From Anaerolineae bacterium (GTDB lineage Bacteria > Chloroflexota > Anaerolineae > Aggregatilineales > Phototrophicaceae), in assembly GCA_013360465.1 (NCBI GenBank), contig JABWBO010000019.1:1-57063 (forward strand): a stretch of 57,063 bases of DNA. The letters run 5' to 3'. The translations under genes were made by a program, and so were the position numbers. This document shows, one piece after another, positions 46,704 to 57,063 of the stretch. Every line of letters begins with the position of its first letter. Position 1 is the stretch's first letter. The notes below the pieces were generated by a model. The model was not told the origin of the DNA, searched no databases, and was given only the letters and a program-made list of their open reading frames with translations.

Positions 46704-47312
46704 ATGGACGAACAACAGCGAACCCTTCTTGTCCTCGACATCGGCAGTTCATCGGTGCGCGCCGCTCTCTACGACGGGCGAGCGCAGCCCATCTTCGGCG
46801 CGTCGATCAGCCGCGAACACAGCCTGGATTATTCCGAACCCGGAGCCGCCACCGCCGACGCCCGCACGCTGCGCGGGTTGATCGAAACCTGTATTGACGA
46901 CCTGCTCACCCACCCCCACGCCGGTGCGATCACGGCAGTCTGCGCGGCGGCGTTTGCCGATTCGCTGGTCGGTCTGGACGAACGCGGCACGCCGATCACG
47001 CCGGTCTACACCTATGCTGATACGCGCTCGGCGGGCGTCCTGGGCGATCTTCAGGGGCGCTTCGACGCTGAAGCTGTACACCAGCGCACCGGCTGTGTTC
47101 TGCACCCGGCGCACCGCCCCGCCAAACTGACCTGGCTGCGGCAGATCAACCCGGCGCTTTTCAAGCAGGTCGCTGAATGGGTCGATTTCCCTGCCTACCT
47201 GTACCGGGCATGGCTGGGCGAAGCGCACAGCAGCTTCTCGCTAAGCGCCTGGAGCGGGCTGCTGGACCGCCATCATCTGACGTGGGATAAGCCCCTGCTC
47301 GACGCAAGGTAG
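46704..47312 (+). pseudogene. FGGY-family sugar kinase, truncated by an IS element
   Basis: N-terminal FGGY ATPase domain (LVLDIGSSSVRAALYDGRAQ, AAFADSLVGLDERGTPITPVYTYADTRS, GCVLHPAHRPAKLTWL), most like gluconokinase/xylulokinase relatives of about 500 residues. Only 202 codons remain. The last two residues and the stop come from the IS end at 47308. The C-terminal half, with the ATP-binding domain, is not found after the IS, so the gene is dead and the flanking chromosome has been lost or displaced. Confidence 0.9.
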
Positions 47313-48498
47313 TTGGGTGAGATTATCTCCACAAGGGGAGGGAGAGGCGGATAGAATGTGATTCATGCAAAAGAAAACACTTCCCCCTACCCGACCCTCA
47401 CTGGACACTTTAGCGTGTGTGAACGCAGAGTGCAAGGACTATGCACAGCCAGGGCTGAACAACCTGACGGTGCGCAAGACGTATGGGCAAGACCAGATTC
47501 GGTATCTGCGCTGTCGCACCTGTCAGCAGGAATTCAGCGAGCGTAAAGGAAGCGCGCTGTGGAACACGAAGGTGAGCGAGGAAAAAGCGGTGTCGGTGGC
47601 GGCACATCTGGCGGAAGGGTGTTCCATGAGCGCCACGCGGCGGTTGTCCGGGGTGGACAAGAGCGTGGTGGTGCGGCTGAACCGTCGCTTAGGCAAACAC
47701 GGAGAGGCATTCCACGATGCGCGTGTGCAGGATGTGCAGGTTGAGGCGTTGGAAGCGGACGAGCGGCACGGCTATGCCCAGGACAAACGGTCGCCGTGCT
47801 GGGAAGCGGAGATCATCGACCCGGTGAGCAAGTTCGTGCTGTCGCATGAGCAGGGAGCGCGAGACGCGACCCTCATTGAGCGGTTGCTGCGCGACGGCGC
47901 GGCACGACTGCACAACCGTCATGCCCTGCTGCTGCTGACCGATGGCGAACCCAGCTATGCCAGCCTGTTCCCGGAAATCTTTGGTGTCCCCTACCAGCCC
48001 GCGCGTCAGGGGACACGCGGACGGATGCCCAAGGTGCGCTACCGCATCCCGCGCACGCTGGCGCATGTGCAGATCGTCAAACAGCGTCAAGGCGCGCGCG
48101 TCGTCAAAGTCGACGTGCGCTTCGCGCATGGTTCCCAGAAATGCGCCCACGCCGGGCTGGAACGCCTCGGCTATGCCAGGTTCAACACCTCCGCCATTGA
48201 GCGACGCAACGGCACCGCCCGTCGCATGGTCGCCTACCAGGTGCGGCGCTCGTCCGCCTTTGCCCATCGTCCTGAGACGAAAAAGGCGCTTGGCTGGTGG
48301 GCGCTGACCGTCTACAACTGGTCGCGTCCCCATGCTGCCCTGCCGTTGCCGTTGCCCTGTCCACTGGGTAAAAAAAGCGCATTCAGCGTACCCCTGCGAT
48401 GGCGCTCGGTCTGACCCACTGTGCTTATTCCATCCGTAACCTGCTGCTCACTCCCTTGTATCCCACCCCCCTGCGGAGATAATCTCACCGAACTACCC
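47308..48498 (+). mobile_element. IS1-like insertion sequence, 1191 bp
   Basis: Terminal inverted repeats of 23 bp (47308-47330 and 48476-48498) with one mismatch, core GGTGAGATTATCTCC; partial identity continues about 10 bp inward. One transposase gene inside. The flanks CGACGCAA and CAAAAGCC do not match, so there is no target-site duplication; this points to rearrangement after insertion, or an assembly join at a repeated element. Confidence 0.9.
47365..48414 (+). CDS. IS1-like DDE transposase with N-terminal zinc ribbon
   Basis: 349 residues as one frame, without the frameshift of classical IS1. The N-terminal zinc ribbon has Cys pairs (CVNAEC and CRTCQQEF), followed by an HTH (AAHLAEGCSMSATRRLSGVDKSVVVRL). 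Catalytic residues appear as D in ALEADERHGY, D in LLTDGEPSY and E in AIERRNGTARR, the last resembling the IS1 E-R-x-N pattern. Complete, apparently intact. Confidence 0.8.
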   Translation: MQKKTLPPTRPSLDTLACVNAECKDYAQPGLNNLTVRKTYGQDQIRYLRCRTCQQEFSERKGSALWNTKVSEEKAVSVAAHLAEGCSMSATRRLSGVDKSVVVRLNRRLGKHGEAFHDARVQDVQVEALEADERHGYAQDKRSPCWEAEIIDPVSKFVLSHEQGARDATLIERLLRDGAARLHNRHALLLLTDGEPSYASLFPEIFGVPYQPARQGTRGRMPKVRYRIPRTLAHVQIVKQRQGARVVKVDVRFAHGSQKCAHAGLERLGYARFNTSAIERRNGTARRMVAYQVRRSSAFAHRPETKKALGWWALTVYNWSRPHAALPLPLPCPLGKKSAFSVPLRWRSV

Positions 48499-48527: not shown

Positions 48528-50687
48528 TCAATTGAGCAAAGGGTGACAGCGTGAAGCGACAGCATTGACTGCTGCCTTTGCCCGACGGTAATAACGAAGG
48601 GTGTTGGGCGACATGCCAACTATGGCACAAATTGCGGTTTGTGTGAGGGGCTGGTTGGCTGCGGACAACTGCTGCACCGCCTGTTCAATGCGGTTCAAAA
48701 GCTGTGCTTCATAAGCACACCGCTGTTCTGCTCGTGCCTGACGAACCATTTCTACAACCTCCGGGTAATCACGTAAGTTCGCCAGTGACCTGCCGACAAG
48801 TTGACTCACCGCAGGCATGGTGACTTTTCTTCCTTCTTGGGTCAGGCGCGCCACCACCTCAGTGACACGCTGCAAAAACTGCTGACGCAGTTGTGTCTGC
48901 TGCGCTTCCAGCAGCGGTGTTATCAGCGCCATAAGTTCTGGATGTTGACGTGCAGCACTTTCGCAGAGTCCTGCTTGGTTGCAGATAACTGCCTGAGTCA
49001 GAATGGGGATGTGGCTTTGTGTTTGCAGCGTGTCAAGTGCTCGTACCACTTTGTCCGTCCGCGCGCTTTTCTGGCGTGCAAATTCCTCGTCACACACGGT
49101 TTTGAGGTAGGCACTGACCTGAGGGTAACGACTGAGTGTACTTACATGGACACCCAAGCAGTGTGCCACCGCTTTTCGGGACACGATTTGGTGTTCCGTA
49201 TAGAGTTGTTGGACGGCTGTTTCTGCTTTTGCCAGCAGCAGGCGGTCCATTTGCGCTGCTTGAAGCACACGGGACTGCTTGAGCAGTGTCATGACACTGG
49301 GGTAAGTACGCTCAAGATGAACTAAGCTGAATCCAAGTGCCGCAGCGACACGCTCTTGTGTGACAGGCTGTCCTGCCTCCAACAACGCTTGCAGGATGTG
49401 CTGCGCCTGCGCCAGCAAGGTTTGCTCACAGCGGAGCATCCGCGTCGGTTTCCGGTTGGTTGCGCGACGGTTAAGGGTGTACAGGCGGTCACGAATACGC
49501 GGATAAGCCTTCAGGGTACGCTCACCTACGCCGACGCTTCGGTAGATTTCGCTCCGGTAGGCTGGTTTTCCTTGCGCTTGCTGCAAGCGAATGACCGTTT
49601 CAACGTGCTCCAACAGCCCGGTTTCTTGGTTGTCGCGGGCTGCGGTTTCCAGACGAGAAAGCACCGCGTGGGTCGCAGGATGGCGGTGCAGGGTCTTCAC
49701 GCACAATCCCGTCCAGATACGCAGCGTTGGGTCGTCAATGGGCTGACCGGTGGACTGAAGATGGGCAACTACATGGGTAAGTTGGGCTTCAAGCCGTTGT
49801 TCGCGGGTGAAGGTCTCTGGAAACGAGGCATAATGTGCCAACCCATCCGTAAACATTTGTTCCAGTGACACGCCCAGATAATCTGCGTAGCGGACATAGC
49901 GCATGAACTGTGCCCCCGGAAGTCCGACGTTGCCTCGCTCTATGGCGCGAATGCCCGCGCTCAGGATGCCAATGTGTGCTGCCACCTGGTTCGCACTCTG
50001 CCCGGTTTGTCGTCGTGCGCGCTCAAACGCGGTTCCCGCAGCGAGTACCGCTTCCAGTGCCCCATCTCTTTCCCAACGTTGAGGCAGCAGCAGAAATTCG
50101 AGGTCACGCCACCGTCGCTGCGCGAGTACATGCGCTTCTGGAGACAGAGATGGAGGCATGAAGGTGCGAAGATCTGCCCGACAATGCGGGCAAACACCCA
50201 CTCGAAACGGTGTACTCAAGAGGCGAATGGCATGACCACACGCGGGGCAGCAGTCGAGCAGTTTACAACCATGAACCGGACAGCCTTCCAAAGTGAGCAA
50301 CCGCCAAGGCAGTAAGTAACAGCCCTGTTCCGCGACACACAAGGGGCAGAAACGCAGATGAACAGATAACCCCCGCACCATGAGGAGACTCAGATGGCGC
50401 GACTGAGGAACTCGCCCAAATTTACGGGCAAGATGGAAAAACGTGGTGGACTGCAAGTCGGTTTCGGAGCACAGGGCTTCCTCCGCTACGCGACCGAAAG
50501 ATGCAGGGGTGTAGTCGGTCAGTTCCCGAACTTTGAGAGGATGGGTTTGAGGAAACAAGCGCGCTGCGAGGTCACTATAACGGGTCAGACCGTTACTTTC
50601 TGCCAGACGGGTCACGTAACTGGTGTAGGATTCCAGAGGCAGCGGGGCAGGATGCACAGGCAGTACGTCAAACGCATAAGGGGTCAT
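48528..50687 (-). CDS. tniQ: TniQ/TnsD-type target selector with a seven-unit HTH array
   Basis: 719 residues from ATG 50687, which has GGGGAG eight bases before it and lies four bases after tnsC; a longer frame to 50828 overlaps tnsC and is unlikely. Residues 1-175 are a TniQ domain with Cys/His zinc sites (CPLC, CPVHGC, CCPACGH, CPHC). At about 222-280 is an XRE-like HTH (QTGQSANQVAAHIG, IERGN). From about 300 to the end are seven similar units starting near 300, 361, 424, 485, 544, 605 and 664. Each reads helix, about L-x-x-x-G-Q-P, an HTH with a Gly in its turn, then a tyrosine-proline-like R-Y-P. TniQ proteins pick the target and recruit TnsC. The array probably reads a long DNA sequence (inference). 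Lower GC than the chromosome around it. Confidence 0.9.
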   Translation of the reverse strand: MTPYAFDVLPVHPAPLPLESYTSYVTRLAESNGLTRYSDLAARLFPQTHPLKVRELTDYTPASFGRVAEEALCSETDLQSTTFFHLARKFGRVPQSRHLSLLMVRGLSVHLRFCPLCVAEQGCYLLPWRLLTLEGCPVHGCKLLDCCPACGHAIRLLSTPFRVGVCPHCRADLRTFMPPSLSPEAHVLAQRRWRDLEFLLLPQRWERDGALEAVLAAGTAFERARRQTGQSANQVAAHIGILSAGIRAIERGNVGLPGAQFMRYVRYADYLGVSLEQMFTDGLAHYASFPETFTREQRLEAQLTHVVAHLQSTGQPIDDPTLRIWTGLCVKTLHRHPATHAVLSRLETAARDNQETGLLEHVETVIRLQQAQGKPAYRSEIYRSVGVGERTLKAYPRIRDRLYTLNRRATNRKPTRMLRCEQTLLAQAQHILQALLEAGQPVTQERVAAALGFSLVHLERTYPSVMTLLKQSRVLQAAQMDRLLLAKAETAVQQLYTEHQIVSRKAVAHCLGVHVSTLSRYPQVSAYLKTVCDEEFARQKSARTDKVVRALDTLQTQSHIPILTQAVICNQAGLCESAARQHPELMALITPLLEAQQTQLRQQFLQRVTEVVARLTQEGRKVTMPAVSQLVGRSLANLRDYPEVVEMVRQARAEQRCAYEAQLLNRIEQAVQQLSAANQPLTQTAICAIVGMSPNTLRYYRRAKAAVNAVASRCHPLLN

Positions 50688-50691
50688 AGCT

Positions 50692-51861
50692 TCATCTCCC
50701 CGTCCGCTGCTGCTCAAGAATTTGGAGAAAGTCCGTGACCTGACGGGTCTGAATGGCGTGCCAGCTTTCTTCGAGCAATCCGGGCGATAATGCAGGGAGG
50801 TCGCGCTGGATGGCGCGGGTGCTGGCATCCATGATTAACATCATGATGTCACGCAGAATCCCGCCTGTCCAGCGCTCAATGAGCACAGCAGGACCTGCGA
50901 CGGTTTGCCCCGCTTTGCCTGCTGGAACTTGGTACAGCGCCAATGAGGACGGTTGGCTGAACGGGAGCAGCAGCTCAATGAACGCCAGTAACTGCTGCAA
51001 ACGGTTGCCCGTATATTGTTGAAGCTCAAAATAATCGTTCCAACGCCCCGCGACTTCCGCATCGCCCTCCGTCCAGCGCAAGGGATGGCAAGAGGCACAC
51101 ACCATGGGAATACCATGCGTCAGGTTGGAAATTTCGAGAAACCGTCGACGGATGGCGGAGCGGGTAATGTGCTCAATTTCATCCACAATGAGCAGTTCCG
51201 TCCTGCAGCGATGCAGAAACAAGACCAGTTTCATGAGGAGTTCTTCTTCATTGTCATGGCGGGAGTAGGTCATCCCACATTCAAGGATGAGGCGCTGAAA
51301 CAACGGTTTGGGACTTTTGTTGCTGACGGGCGCGTCAATCTTTATGACCGGAACGTGGGTCACTGTCGTTTGTATCTGCGGGAGATGATGAAAAGCGAAC
51401 CAATCCAGATAGGTCGACTTCCCCATTCCCGACGGTCCACCGAGCAGGAAATTGCGCTGCTGCCCAAACGAACGGTAGGCGCGCACCTGCGCCATTTTGT
51501 CGTTCAGGCGACGGAGGTCTGGGGTCATGAGAAACAGAAAATTGTGCAGCCACAAGCGTCGCTGGTCACGGGTGAGCAGGGCGAACTGAGATGCCAACTG
51601 CTGGCGAATGGCTTCGAAACCCGCCTGCTGTACCGCCTGTACGTCAATTTCGAGCGGGTAACGGACGAGCTTCAGGCGCAAGCGCTGCTGAATACGCACA
51701 ATTTGTTCGCCACGCTGGATGTCGACGGACGTGTCCGGGTCAAGTTGGGCGAGGCGGTGGTTGAGCAGGTCATTTTCACGCTGCCACTCCTGCTGCCATG
51801 CTTTCATCTGGCACAAGCGGGCTGCAACATCCAAGTGGGAATTCACCGGGGTCGTGTTCAT
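50692..51861 (-). CDS. tnsC: TnsC/TniB-type AAA+ transposition regulator
   Basis: 389 residues. Walker A GGPSGMGKST at 141-150, Walker B ELLIVDEIEH at 212-221, followed by sensor-type segments (MVCASCHPL). TnsC forms an ATP-dependent filament on target DNA, linking TniQ to the TnsAB transposase. N-terminal helical region of about 100 residues before the ATPase core. Its ATG overlaps the tnsB stop (ATGA). Confidence 0.93.
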   Translation of the reverse strand: MNTTPVNSHLDVAARLCQMKAWQQEWQRENDLLNHRLAQLDPDTSVDIQRGEQIVRIQQRLRLKLVRYPLEIDVQAVQQAGFEAIRQQLASQFALLTRDQRRLWLHNFLFLMTPDLRRLNDKMAQVRAYRSFGQQRNFLLGGPSGMGKSTYLDWFAFHHLPQIQTTVTHVPVIKIDAPVSNKSPKPLFQRLILECGMTYSRHDNEEELLMKLVLFLHRCRTELLIVDEIEHITRSAIRRRFLEISNLTHGIPMVCASCHPLRWTEGDAEVAGRWNDYFELQQYTGNRLQQLLAFIELLLPFSQPSSLALYQVPAGKAGQTVAGPAVLIERWTGGILRDIMMLIMDASTRAIQRDLPALSPGLLEESWHAIQTRQVTDFLQILEQQRTGR

Positions 51862-53984
51862 GGGGCTTCCTTTTCAGACAGAGTGCCATCTCCGAGGAAA
51901 CCCACCAGCAGGTCGGTGTATTGCGCGTAGACTGCCTCATGGGACAGTGCGCGAAGATTGGTTTCCGTCGTGCGTGGATCCACCGGTATCCGTTTGGCAA
52001 GGGGGATTGCGCGACGAGTTTGGCGACGCTCCTTTTGGCGCTGCTGCACCAGCGTATCCAATTCATGCAGATAATGCAGCCAGTCACGGGAAGAATTGCC
52101 CGCCTCACGCGACATGCGCTGTGCCATCTCCCGTTCTGCGAGACTCAAGGTCATCCATGCTCCGTCGGGCTGACGCAGGGGATGGGCGTAGACATCTCCC
52201 ACCCAATGTCCGTCCCGAAACAACGCCAGACAGCCAATATTGGCAGGGTCATACCGAAAAGCATACTGCACACGCTTGCCTTGGCGGTCATAACGCGCTG
52301 CTTGTCCCAATTCAGGGGACCCGTAGGTCATACCAAATGCTGAGATTCCCTTGCTGGTCACGACTCGCGTTTGCGGATGCAGTCGCCAGAACGCGCGCAG
52401 CATCTCCGGGGTTTGCGGTGGGACGAGCGGGAGTCCCATCTGCATCCCTTCCAGCCACTTTTCGTGCGGGGTCATCCCTTGAAGCTCACCATGAACCGTG
52501 TGCTGGTAATGCAGAATTGTTTGGTGAATAAAACGGTTGACATCCTGGTACAACAAACAAGCATCCCGCACTGCGTGGCGAAGATGCTGAGGTTGAGAAG
52601 ATTGCAGTGCTCCGGGCAGGAGCGACCGGATTTGTCCAGCGAGATTTCCAAAAAAGCGTTCGACCAACGCACCATAACGCCCGCGGTAAGGCGGGCGAAA
52701 CACAAGGTCAATGCTGGAATACTTTCCACTCTGGCTGACCAGACGGGCAAGGTCTTCCAGACTGTGCGAATGATGTGCCCACGCATTATCCAGTGAGAGC
52801 TGTTGTGGAATTCCGTAACATACCCAGTCTTCGGAGAGTCCGAGCGCCAAGTGAGAAGTTTTGGGCCACAGCGCGTGCTGTAATGCAGTTTGGATAGACA
52901 TGATGCTCGGTGCTTCATACAGCAGAGCGATTCCCAGAATGCTGCGCGAGTAAGCGTCAATGAGCACCGTCAGCCACAAGCGGTCGCGTTCGGTGCGGGT
53001 CGTTTCATCCACGATGAATACGTCCAACAGGTAATGGTCGGCAAACACGTATTCCAAAGGCAGTGCTGCATGGTGGACGAATGTGTCGAACACCTCATAG
53101 GTCTGTTCCCACTGCTGTACGCCACTCCGGGTCGTTACCAGCGCTTTCCCTTGTTCAGGCTGCTGCTCGAACCAGCGCAAATAGGTGTAGAACCAACTGC
53201 GCGACGGGAGTTGAATCCGTGTCAGAAAAGGGGACTTCTCGGGATTATTCAGCACGGAGTCTATGGGGAGTGTGGGGTCGAGCAGTTCGTCGACCAACAC
53301 AACGGGAAGTGAAGACGGACACCGGGCTGGATTGAGCCAGTAACCTCCCGTCCGTTTGAGAACGGATTGGGCGAGGCGGTAGAGAGTTTGCGGTCGCAGG
53401 GGTGGAATGCGGTTGTAATAGCGCAGAATGAGGGTATCCAGAAAATGGAGTTCCGCTTGGTTCATGCGTGTCTGCTGCCAACTCGACCGCCTCAACGAGG
53501 CTGCCAGTGCGGATTCGCTGCCCCCACATTCACGGGAAAGGCGTTGGTATTTGTAGAACGTCGCCAATGCCAAAGGCGGATCCAACTGTGCCAGCACTTG
53601 CTTGAGCACTGGGGTGCGCTGAAACGGTCGGTCGTGCAAGCGTGCTTGACGTTCTGCTTGCGCGACTTGCGCTTCCACTGTTTCAACCGTTGTGAGCATA
53701 GAGCGAGCACGAGTGAGCAAAGATACGGGCAGCGTGTGCGCGTCAAAAAGTTCTAAGGGGGGTGCGGTCTGTTGCAGTGCTGCCAGTGAGGGGGCAAACC
53801 GCAGTGTTTCTGGTTGGGTTGTTAGCAAAGTCGCCAGATGCAGCACCACTTCTTCCTGTGTCACTTGGTTGACAACGGTCAGTGTCATGCTCTCAGGGGA
53901 AACAGCGGTGATTTGGTAGATTTCCCCGCACGATGACAGATATCCTCCGGGGCGCAGTGACCGTTCCAGCGATGGCGTGGTCAT
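51858..53984 (-). CDS. tnsB: TnsB DDE transposase
   Basis: 708 residues from ATG 53984, which overlaps the tnsA stop as ATGA; a start at 54092 would add 36 residues inside tnsA. N-terminal DNA-binding HTH domains (about 1-250), then an RNase-H fold with the catalytic triad Asp316 (FADHYLLDVFIVD), Asp399 (LSLDNAWAH) and Glu442 (ALVERFFGN). Then a beta barrel (YDRQGKRVQYAFRYDPANIG) and a basic C-terminal tail that would contact TnsC. TnsB binds the repeats in the ends and joins the 3' ends to the target. Confidence 0.95.
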   Translation of the reverse strand: MTTPSLERSLRPGGYLSSCGEIYQITAVSPESMTLTVVNQVTQEEVVLHLATLLTTQPETLRFAPSLAALQQTAPPLELFDAHTLPVSLLTRARSMLTTVETVEAQVAQAERQARLHDRPFQRTPVLKQVLAQLDPPLALATFYKYQRLSRECGGSESALAASLRRSSWQQTRMNQAELHFLDTLILRYYNRIPPLRPQTLYRLAQSVLKRTGGYWLNPARCPSSLPVVLVDELLDPTLPIDSVLNNPEKSPFLTRIQLPSRSWFYTYLRWFEQQPEQGKALVTTRSGVQQWEQTYEVFDTFVHHAALPLEYVFADHYLLDVFIVDETTRTERDRLWLTVLIDAYSRSILGIALLYEAPSIMSIQTALQHALWPKTSHLALGLSEDWVCYGIPQQLSLDNAWAHHSHSLEDLARLVSQSGKYSSIDLVFRPPYRGRYGALVERFFGNLAGQIRSLLPGALQSSQPQHLRHAVRDACLLYQDVNRFIHQTILHYQHTVHGELQGMTPHEKWLEGMQMGLPLVPPQTPEMLRAFWRLHPQTRVVTSKGISAFGMTYGSPELGQAARYDRQGKRVQYAFRYDPANIGCLALFRDGHWVGDVYAHPLRQPDGAWMTLSLAEREMAQRMSREAGNSSRDWLHYLHELDTLVQQRQKERRQTRRAIPLAKRIPVDPRTTETNLRALSHEAVYAQYTDLLVGFLGDGTLSEKEAP

Positions 53985-54670
53985 GAGCACACTCCGTTCT
54001 CGATATTCGCAAGCCAAATCTGTGCCTGAGGCGTGAAGCTCGCTTGCAAGAGGATGGGCTGCTGCCAGTTGGTCATGAAGTATGTGTGCCATAGCGCATG
54101 GCAGAGACTCGCAGCGACTTGCGGTTGGGGCAAACCCGTCTGGCTGACCATCTCTCTCGTCAGCACCGATAATGCCATTTTCCTTTCGCCCAACAGACAG
54201 ATTGCAGTTTCCTCAAGCTGCTCTACCCGATACACGCTCGGACGATACCGCACCAGACTCAACAGGTTGGATAGTTCATATCCTTGCGGCAAGTCTGTTT
54301 CTGTATGCACGACGTAGCGCCATCCCCTCGTTTGGCAAATGGTGCTGGCAAGTTGCTCACGGGCTTGGTGACCCGCACGTTTCCGTCGTTCAGTCCGGGT
54401 GACTTCGTGAATTTCTACGCAACCATCCTGTTTCCACACGAGGAAATCCGGTGTGTAACGCGGAACTTCTTCACTGTGAAAGGTTTCTGGTTGGCTGGCG
54501 TAGTCTCGAACCGTATGGTCGCGCTCTAAACGGAGCAGCAGGCTGCGCTCGGCAAACGACTCGAACTGCACAATACGTCCGGCTTTGTTGGTGAGAGTTC
54601 CGCGTAAGTTACTGCCCATGGCTGCAACACGGCGGACATTCCCGGCGGGTGGTTTTCGTTTCAGGCTCAT
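53981..54670 (-). CDS. tnsA: TnsA-type endonuclease of the Tn7-like element
   Basis: 229 residues. N-terminal nuclease domain with Glu41 (FESFAERS), Asp75 (RYTPDFLV) and the E-V motif at 89-90 (VEIHEVTR); the third position is Thr91 where TnsA and other PD-(D/E)xK enzymes have Lys. C-terminal winged-helix-like part (LTREMVSQTGLPQPQVAASL) that would contact TnsC. TnsA cleaves the 5' strands so the element leaves by cut-and-paste rather than copy-in. Start preceded by AGGAG nine bases upstream. First gene of tnsABC-tniQ. If Thr91 disables cleavage, co-integrates would be expected. Confidence 0.88.
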   Translation of the reverse strand: MSLKRKPPAGNVRRVAAMGSNLRGTLTNKAGRIVQFESFAERSLLLRLERDHTVRDYASQPETFHSEEVPRYTPDFLVWKQDGCVEIHEVTRTERRKRAGHQAREQLASTICQTRGWRYVVHTETDLPQGYELSNLLSLVRYRPSVYRVEQLEETAICLLGERKMALSVLTREMVSQTGLPQPQVAASLCHALWHTYFMTNWQQPILLQASFTPQAQIWLANIENGVCS

Positions 54671-54760
54671 CTGGTTTTTCTCCTGCTGAATGAAGAAAGG
54701 AGGTGCATCCCCGATGGTGACCTAAACGGCATACCGATGTCCAACACGGACTTCCTTTTT

Positions 54761-54891
54761 CTACGGTTACATTGGAATCTCGGTGTTTTTCTTCACTTAC
54801 GTTGGATTTTTCTACGGAGGGAAAGATGCAAAAGACAGCAAGTCTCTCGTATTCACCGTTTTTCTATTCTACGGTTACGTTGGAATCCACA
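54761..54891. repeat. Tn7-type transposon end next to tnsA (right end)
   Basis: Three repeats of the form TTTTTCTnnnGTTACRTTGG at about 54756-54778, 54788-54810 and 54860-54886. The outermost continues GTTACGTTGGAATCCACA to 54891, so the terminus is CACA-3' (TGTG read inward), as in Tn7. These are candidate TnsB sites; spacing is tight, then wide. The neighbouring five bases are GGAGC. The tnsA promoter must lie here, so TnsB binding could repress its own operon (inference). Confidence 0.8.
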
Positions 54892-54903
54892 GGAGCGAAC
54901 CTA

Positions 54904-55143
54904 ATGCTCCACTGCAAACGCCAGAATTATCATCGCTCCAACCTGCCGCCGCCCGGCGCAGTCGGGCACATCGTTGGGCTGAGTACGATCAATCCGCGCC
55001 GCAAGTGCATCGTGAGCCATTACCCGTTGTGCGACAGTGCGGATTATCGCTACAGCATCGGCATTCACACAATCTGGGTGCGCTTCCTCGATAACGGCGA
55101 GATTGCGCGCTTCAGCGGCATCTGGTTCGAGGAGCAGCTATGA
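54904..55143 (+). CDS. Small uncharacterised protein
   Basis: 79 residues, not recognised. ATG 54904 with GGAG directly upstream, the GGAG beginning right at the transposon terminus (54892), so its promoter has been cut off or replaced. The C-terminal half reads like strands (YSIGIHTIWVRFLDNGEIARFSGIWFEEQL); a Cys/His pattern (C-V-S-H-Y-P-L-C) is present. The stop overlaps the next gene's start (ATGA), so it belongs to a three-gene cassette. Confidence 0.65.
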   Translation: MLHCKRQNYHRSNLPPPGAVGHIVGLSTINPRRKCIVSHYPLCDSADYRYSIGIHTIWVRFLDNGEIARFSGIWFEEQL

Positions 55144-55547
55144 CCACGCTTACCCACCTCAACTGGCAGCCCGTTATCATGCTTAAAGTGGTTCGGCTGC
55201 CGTTCGCTGATCTCGGCGGACTATCGCTGAAATGCGCCTATCTTGCACATGATAACGGACGCATCCTGTATGCGGATTGGACACTCGATGCCGCCGAGCG
55301 CGCGGAACCGCTCGTCTTCGCCACCGGGTGGACATTCACATACATGCCGATGCTGCCATTCCGTTTGCAGGGCGACGGCGCAAAACGTGTCCCGACAGGC
55401 ACTTGGGTGCTGCCTTACAAGGACAGCCTGTATACGCTTTACAGTTCTGCAAGTGCAGTTCTCGCGCATCTTCTCCACCAGATCGACCAGCGCCCGACCG
55501 ATCCAACCACCATTACCACCCTCATTCGTCTCACTGAATCTCTCTAA
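55140..55547 (+). CDS. Uncharacterised protein
   Basis: 135 residues, not recognised. Alternating strands in the first half (LGGLSLKCAYLAHDNGRILYADWTL), then FATGWTFTYMPMLPF and a helical end. No signal peptide and no TM helix. Translationally coupled to the preceding gene by ATGA overlap and followed 15 bases later by the third gene. Confidence 0.65.
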   Translation: MTTLTHLNWQPVIMLKVVRLPFADLGGLSLKCAYLAHDNGRILYADWTLDAAERAEPLVFATGWTFTYMPMLPFRLQGDGAKRVPTGTWVLPYKDSLYTLYSSASAVLAHLLHQIDQRPTDPTTITTLIRLTESL

Positions 55548-55562
55548 CCAAAGGACAATCTC

Positions 55563-56180
55563 ATGACTCACGATCCGAAAGCCGCCGCGATGCAGCGGTA
55601 TCATGACCGCTTTGATTCTGCCCAGTACAACGCCATCGGCGAGTTCCTCGCCTCCAACCTGAACGCGGACCGCGATGAGTCGCGCGTTGTGGACATCTTG
55701 GTCGCCTTGCAAAACACGGCATTCGGTCTCTGCGACCATCCCGATTTCGCTACGGCATGGCATCCGCTGGCGGTGCAGTGCGGACAGAACTTCCTCTCGT
55801 TCCACACCGTCGATGCGATGCGCGATTTCTTGCGCCGCTTCGCTCCCGAAGACATGCGTATCGATGACTTCGAGGCGACCGCCAAAGGGATGCTGCGCGC
55901 CTACAGCGGGTTGGATGATCTCCAGACGGCGACCGCCCACGCCAACGGTGTTCATTCGTGGCAGGGACGGATGGCATACGAACTGCTCGCCGCCGTCGAT
56001 TACCTGACCCAGACCGCCATCCAGATGCTTGCTCACGGTGATGAGAACTACGCCCGCGAGAAGCTGCACAACGGCTTGAACCGCATCAGCGGCGCACTGT
56101 ACGAGGGTATCCGCCACAGCGACCAGCCCGCGCTCTACAACTTCAAATCGACGTACTTCCCCGACGAGTTCGACCGCTGA
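55563..56180 (+). CDS. Uncharacterised helical protein
   Basis: 205 residues, not recognised. Almost entirely helical and acidic, without membrane segments: AMQRYHDRFDSAQYNAIGEFLASNL, YELLAAVDYLTQTAIQMLAHG, EKLHNGLNRISGALYEGIRH. The start has AAAGGA upstream. With the two preceding genes and ssb it resembles a plasmid- or conjugative-element-type accessory cassette (inference). Confidence 0.65.
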   Translation: MTHDPKAAAMQRYHDRFDSAQYNAIGEFLASNLNADRDESRVVDILVALQNTAFGLCDHPDFATAWHPLAVQCGQNFLSFHTVDAMRDFLRRFAPEDMRIDDFEATAKGMLRAYSGLDDLQTATAHANGVHSWQGRMAYELLAAVDYLTQTAIQMLAHGDENYAREKLHNGLNRISGALYEGIRHSDQPALYNFKSTYFPDEFDR

Positions 56181-56739: not shown

Positions 56740-57015
56740 ATGGGCAGCTCGTTGAATATGCAGGTGACCGGGTACGTCGGCAGTGATCCGCAGGTGCGGC
56801 AGGTGGGTGAGCAGACGGTCGCGTCGTTCTCGGTGGCGGTCAGCCGCAAGAACCGCGCAGGCGAAAAACAGACCGTTTGGGTGCGTGTGTCGTGCTGGAA
56901 TAAATTGGCGGACATCGCGGTCAAGTACGTCCACAAAGGTTCGCTGATCCAAGCGACTGCCGATTGTGAATTCCAACGTAACTTGAGAATCGCCAAAAAA
57001 TCCAATGTAACTTGA
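56740..57015 (+). pseudogene. ssb: Single-stranded DNA-binding protein, interrupted by a transposon end
   Basis: The first ~75 codons are a normal SSB OB-fold: MQVTGYVGSDPQVRQVGEQT, ASFSVAVSRKN, TVWVRVSCWNKLADIAVKYVHKGSLIQATAD. At 56965 a Tn7-type end begins in the middle of the fold; reading runs 17 codons into it and stops at 57015. Start at 56740 with GAGGAG. The remaining half is not in the window. Host ssb is essential, so this is probably a second, element-borne copy. Confidence 0.85.
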
Positions 57016-57063
57016 GAAAAATTCCAGCGACTCTCAAACGTCGGTATCACGTGACAACAGACG
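56965..57063. repeat. Tn7-type transposon end facing the first one (left-end type)
   Basis: TGTGAATTCCAACGTAAC begins at 56965 inside ssb. A second copy CCAATGTAACTTGAGAA starts at 57002 and a degenerate one (ATTCCAGCGACTCTC) near 57021. Same motif family as the end at 54761-54891 but reversed, with CTTGAGAA in place of the CCGTAGAA that follows the motif there; so it looks like the other end type. The transposon it belongs to extends beyond the window. The five bases before it are CCGAT. Confidence 0.75.

Follow-up and report, generated by a model that had tools for sequence, protein, structure and literature searches.

The stretch of DNA analysed here, referred to as the window, is contig JABWBO010000019.1 (57,063 nucleotides) of the Anaerolineae bacterium assembly GCA_013360465.1, and this text concerns a Tn7-like transposon in it whose target-selector gene, tniQ/tnsD-like, lies on the minus strand at 48528-50687. 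The initial annotation had assigned a TniQ domain and an XRE-like helix-turn-helix (HTH) to this open reading frame (ORF), and both were borne out by Pfam. The TniQ domain covers residues 10-143 (50259-50660, minus strand; PF06527, E 4.6e-17; PDB TniQ 7u5d, E 4e-6), and its 63.4 bits against a cut-off of 27 place the protein in the TniQ/TnsD family. The XRE-like HTH covers residues 218-276 (49860-50036, minus strand; HTH_31, E 3.7e-8). The Tn7-type TnsD family PF15978 was absent from the 24 Pfam families that the protein matched at E ≤ 1. Because the ATG at 50687 agrees with the N-termini of two homologues (from genomes G057 and G506), we preferred the 719-residue form of the protein over a 766-residue form.

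The gene stands last in a compact operon of the order tnsA-tnsB-tnsC-tniQ, as expected of a Tn7-like element. All four genes are on the minus strand and their reading frames are all open. The gene tnsC (50692-51861) encodes a TniB-like AAA+ protein (TniB, 5.6e-15; AAA_22, 2.8e-13). The DDE transposase gene tnsB (51858-54092) owes its name partly to operon position, its Mu-transpos_C match (3.8e-4) scoring 20.8 bits, just below the gathering score of 21.7. The endonuclease gene tnsA (53981-54670) matched Tn7_TnsA-like_N at 1.2e-6 and NCBIfam TnsA_like at 3.5e-21, the latter below its cut-off. Together these genes take up 48528-54670, which puts the right end about 220 bp beyond them, and no other gene was called inside the element. 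By gene content the element has no tnsE, cas genes or second tniQ, no search with TnsE or cas models having been made; this content was read from the window copy together with the copy at locus L002, neither of which is intact from end to end. The TniQ of the window is the only target selector found in the element.

Seven homologous units in the TniQ tail

The presence of an array of seven homologous units in this TniQ was confirmed. Residues 297-716 consist of seven units of about 60 residues, with start-to-start spacings of 59-66. The self-similarity of residues 291-719 peaked at a lag of 59 with a value of 0.02, over the maximum of each of 200 shuffles (best -0.18), and residues 1-290 showed no peak exceeding their own shuffles. 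In a leave-one-out profile test, all seven units scored above every one of their 183-198 scored shuffles (15.6-37.6 bits; best shuffle ≤8.7). The units, all on the minus strand and given with their leave-one-out scores, are unit 1 (residues 297-355; 49623-49799; 24.2 bits), unit 2 (residues 356-414; 49446-49622; 16.7 bits), unit 3 (residues 422-481; 49245-49424; 29.8 bits), unit 4 (residues 482-540; 49068-49244; 37.6 bits), unit 5, the most divergent (residues 541-601; 48885-49067; 15.6 bits), unit 6 (residues 602-660; 48708-48884; 28.5 bits) and unit 7 (residues 661-716; 48540-48707; 33.3 bits). These bounds come from a profile trained on the units of the window, L002 and G057, whose scores on the same units are circular, defining the bounds and testing nothing. 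When units were compared pairwise, 12 of the 21 pairs exceeded the 99th percentile of shuffles and nine did not, unit 5 being the weakest.

The seven starts given in the initial annotation (300, 361, 424, 485, 544, 605 and 664) lie within a few residues of the profile-defined ones, and the periodicity it described held up in both the self-alignment and the leave-one-out test. Its further statement that each unit ends in R-Y-P or a variant holds for six of the seven units as a P after Y or H; unit 7 has YYR instead. Its assignment of the units to the HTH type agrees with structure prediction; the Pfam matches of single units were weak and confined to generic HTH families. In AlphaFold2 models of the whole protein and of the array alone, built from seven and three sequences respectively (mean predicted local distance difference test 67.7 and 78.0), each unit combines a long helix (about 35 residues) with a short one and with an HTH helix, and in most units the long helix runs on from the preceding unit.

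Fold searches related the protein to a solved TnsD structure. With the whole model, the top PDB match by Foldseek was TnsD 8v32 (E 1.9e-3), which we take to be the TnsD of the Peltigera membranacea cyanobiont type I-B CRISPR-associated transposon (CAST; entries 8v32/9bw1). VIA-align superposed residues 125-247 of the array model on residues 342-462 of 8v32 (Z 6.0, root-mean-square deviation 5.9 over 117), that is, the last ~120 residues of 8v32 on two array units, in a tie with unrelated matches. The unit profile was unspecific against the PDB, with Ada, kinesin light chain and others ranking over 8v32 (E 0.066), and the fold search of BFVD returned nothing at E ≤ 0.001. Judged by the repeat statistics and the modelled secondary structure, the C-terminal part is a multi-HTH region as expected of a TnsD-type selector, and it is predicted to bind DNA.

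A different function was considered at this point, in which the array would act as a scaffold, either for oligomerisation or for binding TnsC or some other partner, leaving the DNA to be read by the core and the XRE-like HTH. The inter-unit helices of ~35 residues fit such a function, as do weak structural matches to the dynein tail and other helical scaffolds, which stand level with 8v32. However, the units show the HTH pattern and match generic HTH families, they resemble the C-terminal HTHs of the DNA-bound TnsD 8v32, and elements at different sites have differently built arrays. We regard a scaffold as improbable.

The initial annotation had proposed a search of TniQ proteins for the same repeats. 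Seven collinear units were found at L002; elsewhere five, six, or 0-1 units were detected. The L002 protein, from a Chloroflexi metagenome-assembled genome, is 74% identical to that of the window and has its N-terminus cut by the contig start; each of its units best matches the window unit of equal rank. Identity between the two proteins is 121/154 positions in the HTHs vs 171/259 in the linkers, gap cells counting as differences, which lowers the linker figure. All genomes used were draft assemblies. Among 151 genomes searched around the source, eight had a TniQ match and two, the source and G057, had detectable units, with none above threshold at the TniQ loci L004-L009 and L012. The G057 protein has five unit stretches, four of them at an independent E-value (i-E) ≤ 0.0043 and the fifth at 0.28, by a profile independent of G057. 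In a sample of the class, five of 396 genomes matched at E ≤ 1e-8; G430 has a broken gene with three clear unit stretches, and the other three new TniQ matches had no units. A search of the phylum with the array profile matched three of 400 genomes, namely the source, G699 and G733. G699, from another class, has six unit stretches in an open frame of 533 residues close to the start of a contig; as this frame starts downstream of the zinc region, the gene is seen only in part. G733 has seven stretches across two frames of a broken or cut gene, one of them at 0.15 and two being halves of one unit by position, which amounts to about six units. Finally, in G506, whose TnsC is 48% identical, the frame of tniQ is interrupted and there is one weak unit at most (i-E 0.17).

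Beyond L002, arrays are uncommon and variable in unit number. The five-unit array of G057 and the six-unit array of G699 are not collinear with that of the window, and the G699 units are as similar or more similar to each other than to units of other arrays. From comparison of these short sequences, related elements at different sites (thiF, ssb and the selenocysteine tRNA gene, tRNA-SeC) appear to differ by lengthening, shortening and remodelling of their arrays. Outside these genomes, the TniQ protein gave three pattern stretches and no confirmed match in viral contigs and no match in phages, and the array alone gave no match in plasmids; the whole protein matched nine plasmid records at 25-36%, in the core only.

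The same family of genomes also carries a second TniQ type of 584-591 residues (L004, L006 and L008, in G042, G001 and G008). It is closely related to the cyanobacterial TnsD 8v32 and has, by eye, several divergent HTH-like units. The L006 protein matched 8v32 at E 6.2e-36 with the last HTHs included, and is nearer to 8v32 than the window TniQ is; profile comparison of L006 with the array units gave a weak link (probability 17%, E 0.0014).

Insertion at the 3′ end of thiF and at other sites

From direct and inverted repeats, TnsB-like sites were recognised with the pattern TTCTACGGTTACGTTGGAATC and a CACA ending. The right end of the element (54759-54891, plus strand) holds three such 21-bp sites, at 54759, 54789 and 54867, with its terminus ...CCACA at 54891; the same terminus is found on contig C29 of the source genome (G000) and in G042. 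The left end of the L002 element holds two arrayed sites, and C29 has both TGT...ACA termini, with zero sites at its left end by the strict site pattern. The end pattern, with up to two mismatches, occurred at eight places in the source genome, where the reversed control occurred at none. Over the 151 genomes it occurred at 18 places in ten genomes, and the reversed control pattern at one. By eye, four of the 18 are ends at the thiF site, seven are ends in ssb, three are real-looking ends elsewhere and four are chance occurrences. The chance occurrences (L043, L044, L045 and L047) were so judged, again by eye, as lying in conserved coding sequence.

The terminus GGAATCCACA was present at five places in the 151 genomes. 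Two of them (L043 and L044) were set down to chance, since they have no second TnsB-like site and represent one coding sequence common to two genomes. The other three (window, C29 and G042:C79) precede the same small gene, at 12, 14 and 15 bp from its start, respectively. By comparison with empty sites, the right flank of the window copy (54892-55143, plus strand) consists of these 12 bp, including GGAGC as the expected 5-bp target duplicate from the end of thiF, and a 79-residue 'MLHC' gene from 54904. The left ends of C29 and L002 adjoin the last codons of a ThiF-family gene; these genes score E 1.3e-40 and 6.4e-38 to PRTRC_ThiF, slightly under the curated cut-off.

The small gene is present in 20 of the 98 genomes of the family, at 40 places. 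Among the 29 distinct loci examined, three carry the element, ten have thiF directly upstream (called by our own thiF motif) and are thus empty sites, and 16 have something else upstream. When flanks were compared by eye with the ten empty sites, the insertions in the window, L002, C29 and G042 shared one nucleotide position, both flanks being seen in one locus (C29) and one flank in the three others. Near the end of thiF is a Tyr codon, and the 5-bp duplicate lies 9-13 bases from its start. The insertion position near the thiF 3′ end is fixed, and we infer that the TniQ of this element is the cause. At L002 the left end lies 96 bp past tniQ. Adding this distance to the span from 54891 to the tniQ stop in the window gives a composite of two copies of ~6.46 kb without cargo, which is short beside the medians of 14-29 kb given by Benler et al.

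On C29, the thiF site is occupied by a 283-bp non-autonomous pair of ends (L036, 6947-7229). Since this end-only copy sits there in the same genome, the machinery was active at the thiF site at some time. It also bears on the idea that the seven-unit protein belongs to a decaying gene in an immobile element, with the repeat as a relic. The left end of the window copy has been replaced by an insertion sequence (IS), and the relatives in G430 and G057 have broken tniQ genes, as decay would have it. Against this stand not only the end-only copy at the same site but also the open frames of tniQ, tnsA, tnsB and tnsC in the window and an L002 array kept at 74% identity, and we rate a relic as very improbable.

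We considered which flank would serve as the attachment (att) site. Two observations favour the left flank, the thiF 3′ end: in G699 and G506 it is the left side of the element that adjoins tRNA-SeC, and the left-end sites of L002 are closely spaced; close spacing of end sites correlates with the att side (PMC11406308). The right flank is possible. Along the gene to the right of the insertion (26 distinct sequences, with duplicates and the divergent L078 and L091 dropped), conservation at third codon positions showed no sharp block. Over all positions it was 0.80-0.85 in the first ~140 bp vs ~0.56-0.60 in the rest, a difference which can be explained by protein conservation.

Related elements occupy other genes. 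The G057 element lies in ssb between perfect AGAAT/AGAAT duplicates; the piece of tniQ with five units adjoins the left end, and tnsA lies towards the right end. Another IS has apparently divided this tniQ over two contigs. Ends in ssb were found in the source genome on C49, C127, C150 and in the window at 56965, and a further one on C91 of G004. Five of the seven ssb ends are, by eye, at one codon position, with AGAGC or AGAAT at the junction. In the window, the 5′ part of an ssb gene (56740-56964, plus strand; Pfam SSB, 5.7e-14) is interrupted by the left end of a second related element (56965-57063, minus strand; sites 56969-56989 and 56998-57018), which is cut by the contig end. The G430 element has a perfect GTTGA/GTTGA duplicate, and the left ends of G699 (terminus placed by eye) and G506 lie ~20 bp and ~24 bp, respectively, from the 3′ end of tRNA-SeC.

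Three side observations concern these elements. The ssb-inserted element of G057:C4 (L041, 5102-5656) has its own ssb-like gene between right end and tnsA, which possibly replaces the disrupted ssb. The source contigs C49, C127, C150 and C171 end 88-99 bp inside an element end, and therefore several related copies have probably collapsed in assembly. G506:C42 (L096, 7109-7768) encodes an extra 219-residue protein between tnsC and tniQ that is GIY-YIG-like by eye, with no Pfam hit.

The DNA that hosts the thiF and ssb sites appears to be conjugative. C29 encodes a VirD4/TraG-type coupling protein (E 2e-35) as well as a topoisomerase and a weak ParB-like match below cut-off, and VirD4-type proteins are also encoded on C150 and on G011:C20. 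The island ORFs scanned for VirD4 were chosen because they looked alike, and neither of two ORFs scanned on C49 matched a Pfam family.

How the tail may select its target

In Tn7 and with the cyanobacterial TnsD, TnsC is contacted by the TniQ core, and att DNA by the tail (PMC12585508, PMC11406308). We consider it probable that the window protein is an expanded TnsD/TniQ selector whose tail binds an att site at the 3′ end of thiF. By analogy with its family, the N-terminal zinc-binding TniQ core would recruit TnsC. Binding to the target DNA, the 3′ end of a PRTRC-type thiF in a conjugation-type island, would fall to the XRE-like HTH together with the tail of seven helix/HTH units. Insertion by TnsC and TnsAB would follow, always at the same point a few codons ahead of the thiF stop; the left end of the element would face thiF, and 5 bp would be duplicated.

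A number of observations weigh against this proposal. The predicted template modelling scores of the whole-protein and array models are low (0.28 and 0.33), so the models are not informative on the path of the array or the relative placement of its units. The Foldseek E-values are weak, none being ≤ 0.001, and with the array alone 8v32 was not among the best 50 matches listed. At the insertion site, the C29 flanks (AAGGG/AGGGG) differ by one mismatch and form no perfect duplicate, and L002 and G042 contribute one flank each. The thiF flank of the window copy itself is unseen because its left end was replaced by the IS, and there may be a misassembly across the IS junction. Real-looking ends lie at unrelated places (L042, L048 and L051), a two-mismatch end at C29:30642 has no identified flank, and two of the seven ssb ends are off position, by eye ~33 bp before it in the window and ~20 bp after it in G004. 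The conjugative label rests on VirD4-type proteins on the same contigs, at a distance of ~21 kb from the insertion in the case of C29. Last, G506 adjoins tRNA-SeC with a tniQ whose frame is broken and which has no more than one weak unit, so the array is perhaps not essential there.

We also infer that the array binds DNA, with several units contacting one long site. A more elaborate proposal is a repeat-based DNA reader, in which each unit would contact a successive segment of a long site, so that gain, loss and reshuffling of units would retarget the transposon; we find this doubtful. An ordinary TnsD would do with less: one or two of the seven HTH units, together with the XRE-like HTH, would contact DNA specifically, and the rest would be spacers or non-specific clamps. 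The Tn7 TnsD reads a 36-bp site (+23 to +58; PMC2918618). A small number of specific contacts would also suit the divergence of unit 5, the lack of P in unit 7, the only moderately higher identity of the HTHs over the linkers between the window and L002, and the position of G506 by tRNA-SeC. On the other hand, all seven units are kept in order in L002 at 74% identity, and dispensable spacers need not stay alike. On balance, an ordinary TnsD has a substantial chance of being the right description, if somewhat less than an even one.

The probable reading, an expanded selector with an att-binding tail, has clear relatives. The initial annotation had proposed module-by-module reading of a long site by the TniQ tail and knew of no description of such a mode; as to novelty this is only partly right, as multi-HTH tails are already in print (PMC10293859, PMC11406308) and a solved TnsD, 8v32, was the top Foldseek match. 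In a 2024 review, TniQ proteins are viewed as modular adaptors that mostly carry DNA-binding domains at the C-terminus (PMC11406308). Faure 2023 reports that the TnsD C-termini of CAST I-B, CAST I-D and Tn7017 fold into multiple HTH domains thought to read att sites (PMC10293859). Like the window protein, these TnsD proteins have long, diverse C-terminal regions predicted to be multi-HTH; section 10 of that paper makes no mention of a regular homologous repeat, of a variable copy number or of thiF and ssb targets (PMC10293859). The cyanobiont TnsD recognises a fixed att site (PMC12585508), as the window TniQ probably does, and shares with it the zinc core and HTH units of similar build (residues 342-462 in the cyanobiont protein). 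It differs in having 462 residues vs 719 and two aligned unit-like HTHs vs seven regular repeats, and its element also has CRISPR targeting. Tn7 of E. coli shares TnsABC with a TnsD, a target (glmS) in or beside the 3′ end of a conserved gene, and TGT/ACA ends (PMC2918618). Tn7 differs in its second selector, TnsE, and in its chromosomal safe site; the window element shows no second selector and lies in a conjugation-type island. The Tn5053 family likewise has one TniQ as sole selector, aimed at mobile DNA (plasmid res sites), but lacks tnsA and uses a site-specific recombinase (PMC11406308).

The class, a TnsD with a multi-HTH tail, is thus known, whereas its form here, a regular, long, length-variable and remodelled array, looks new. 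The apparent protein-guided homing to genes of conjugation-type islands without TnsE or CRISPR also looks new, with a parallel in Tn5053 at plasmid res sites: thiF or ssb as a Tn7-like att site was not found in the literature searched, most subscription literature being outside our reach. An element with a lone TniQ at an exact thiF position of a conjugation-type island, with a relative in ssb, is a concrete candidate for the point raised by Benler et al. Because the insertion sites of seven-, five- and six-unit arrays have been located, how TnsD proteins change targets becomes testable. If modular reading were true, one protein selector would suffice, with neither TnsE nor CRISPR, to direct a Tn7-like element to chosen genes of conjugative elements (thiF, ssb) or to tRNA-SeC, and if the units were separable, they could be parts for protein-guided insertion of large DNA.

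Surroundings of the element

To the right, the small gene is followed by two further island genes of 135 and 205 residues (55140-56180, plus strand) with no family hit. To the left, an IS1-like insertion sequence (47308-48497, plus strand; transposase 47365-48414) with 31-bp inverted repeats occupies the place expected for the left end of the tniQ element. It has one full copy in the assembly, and its flanks, the 5′ part of an FGGY kinase gene and the tniQ terminator, share no obvious duplicate. The 3′ half of the kinase gene was not identified, one locus having been read among the 10 FGGY_C matches in the genome. The part present, at 46704-47307, is gluconokinase-like and is cut by the IS.

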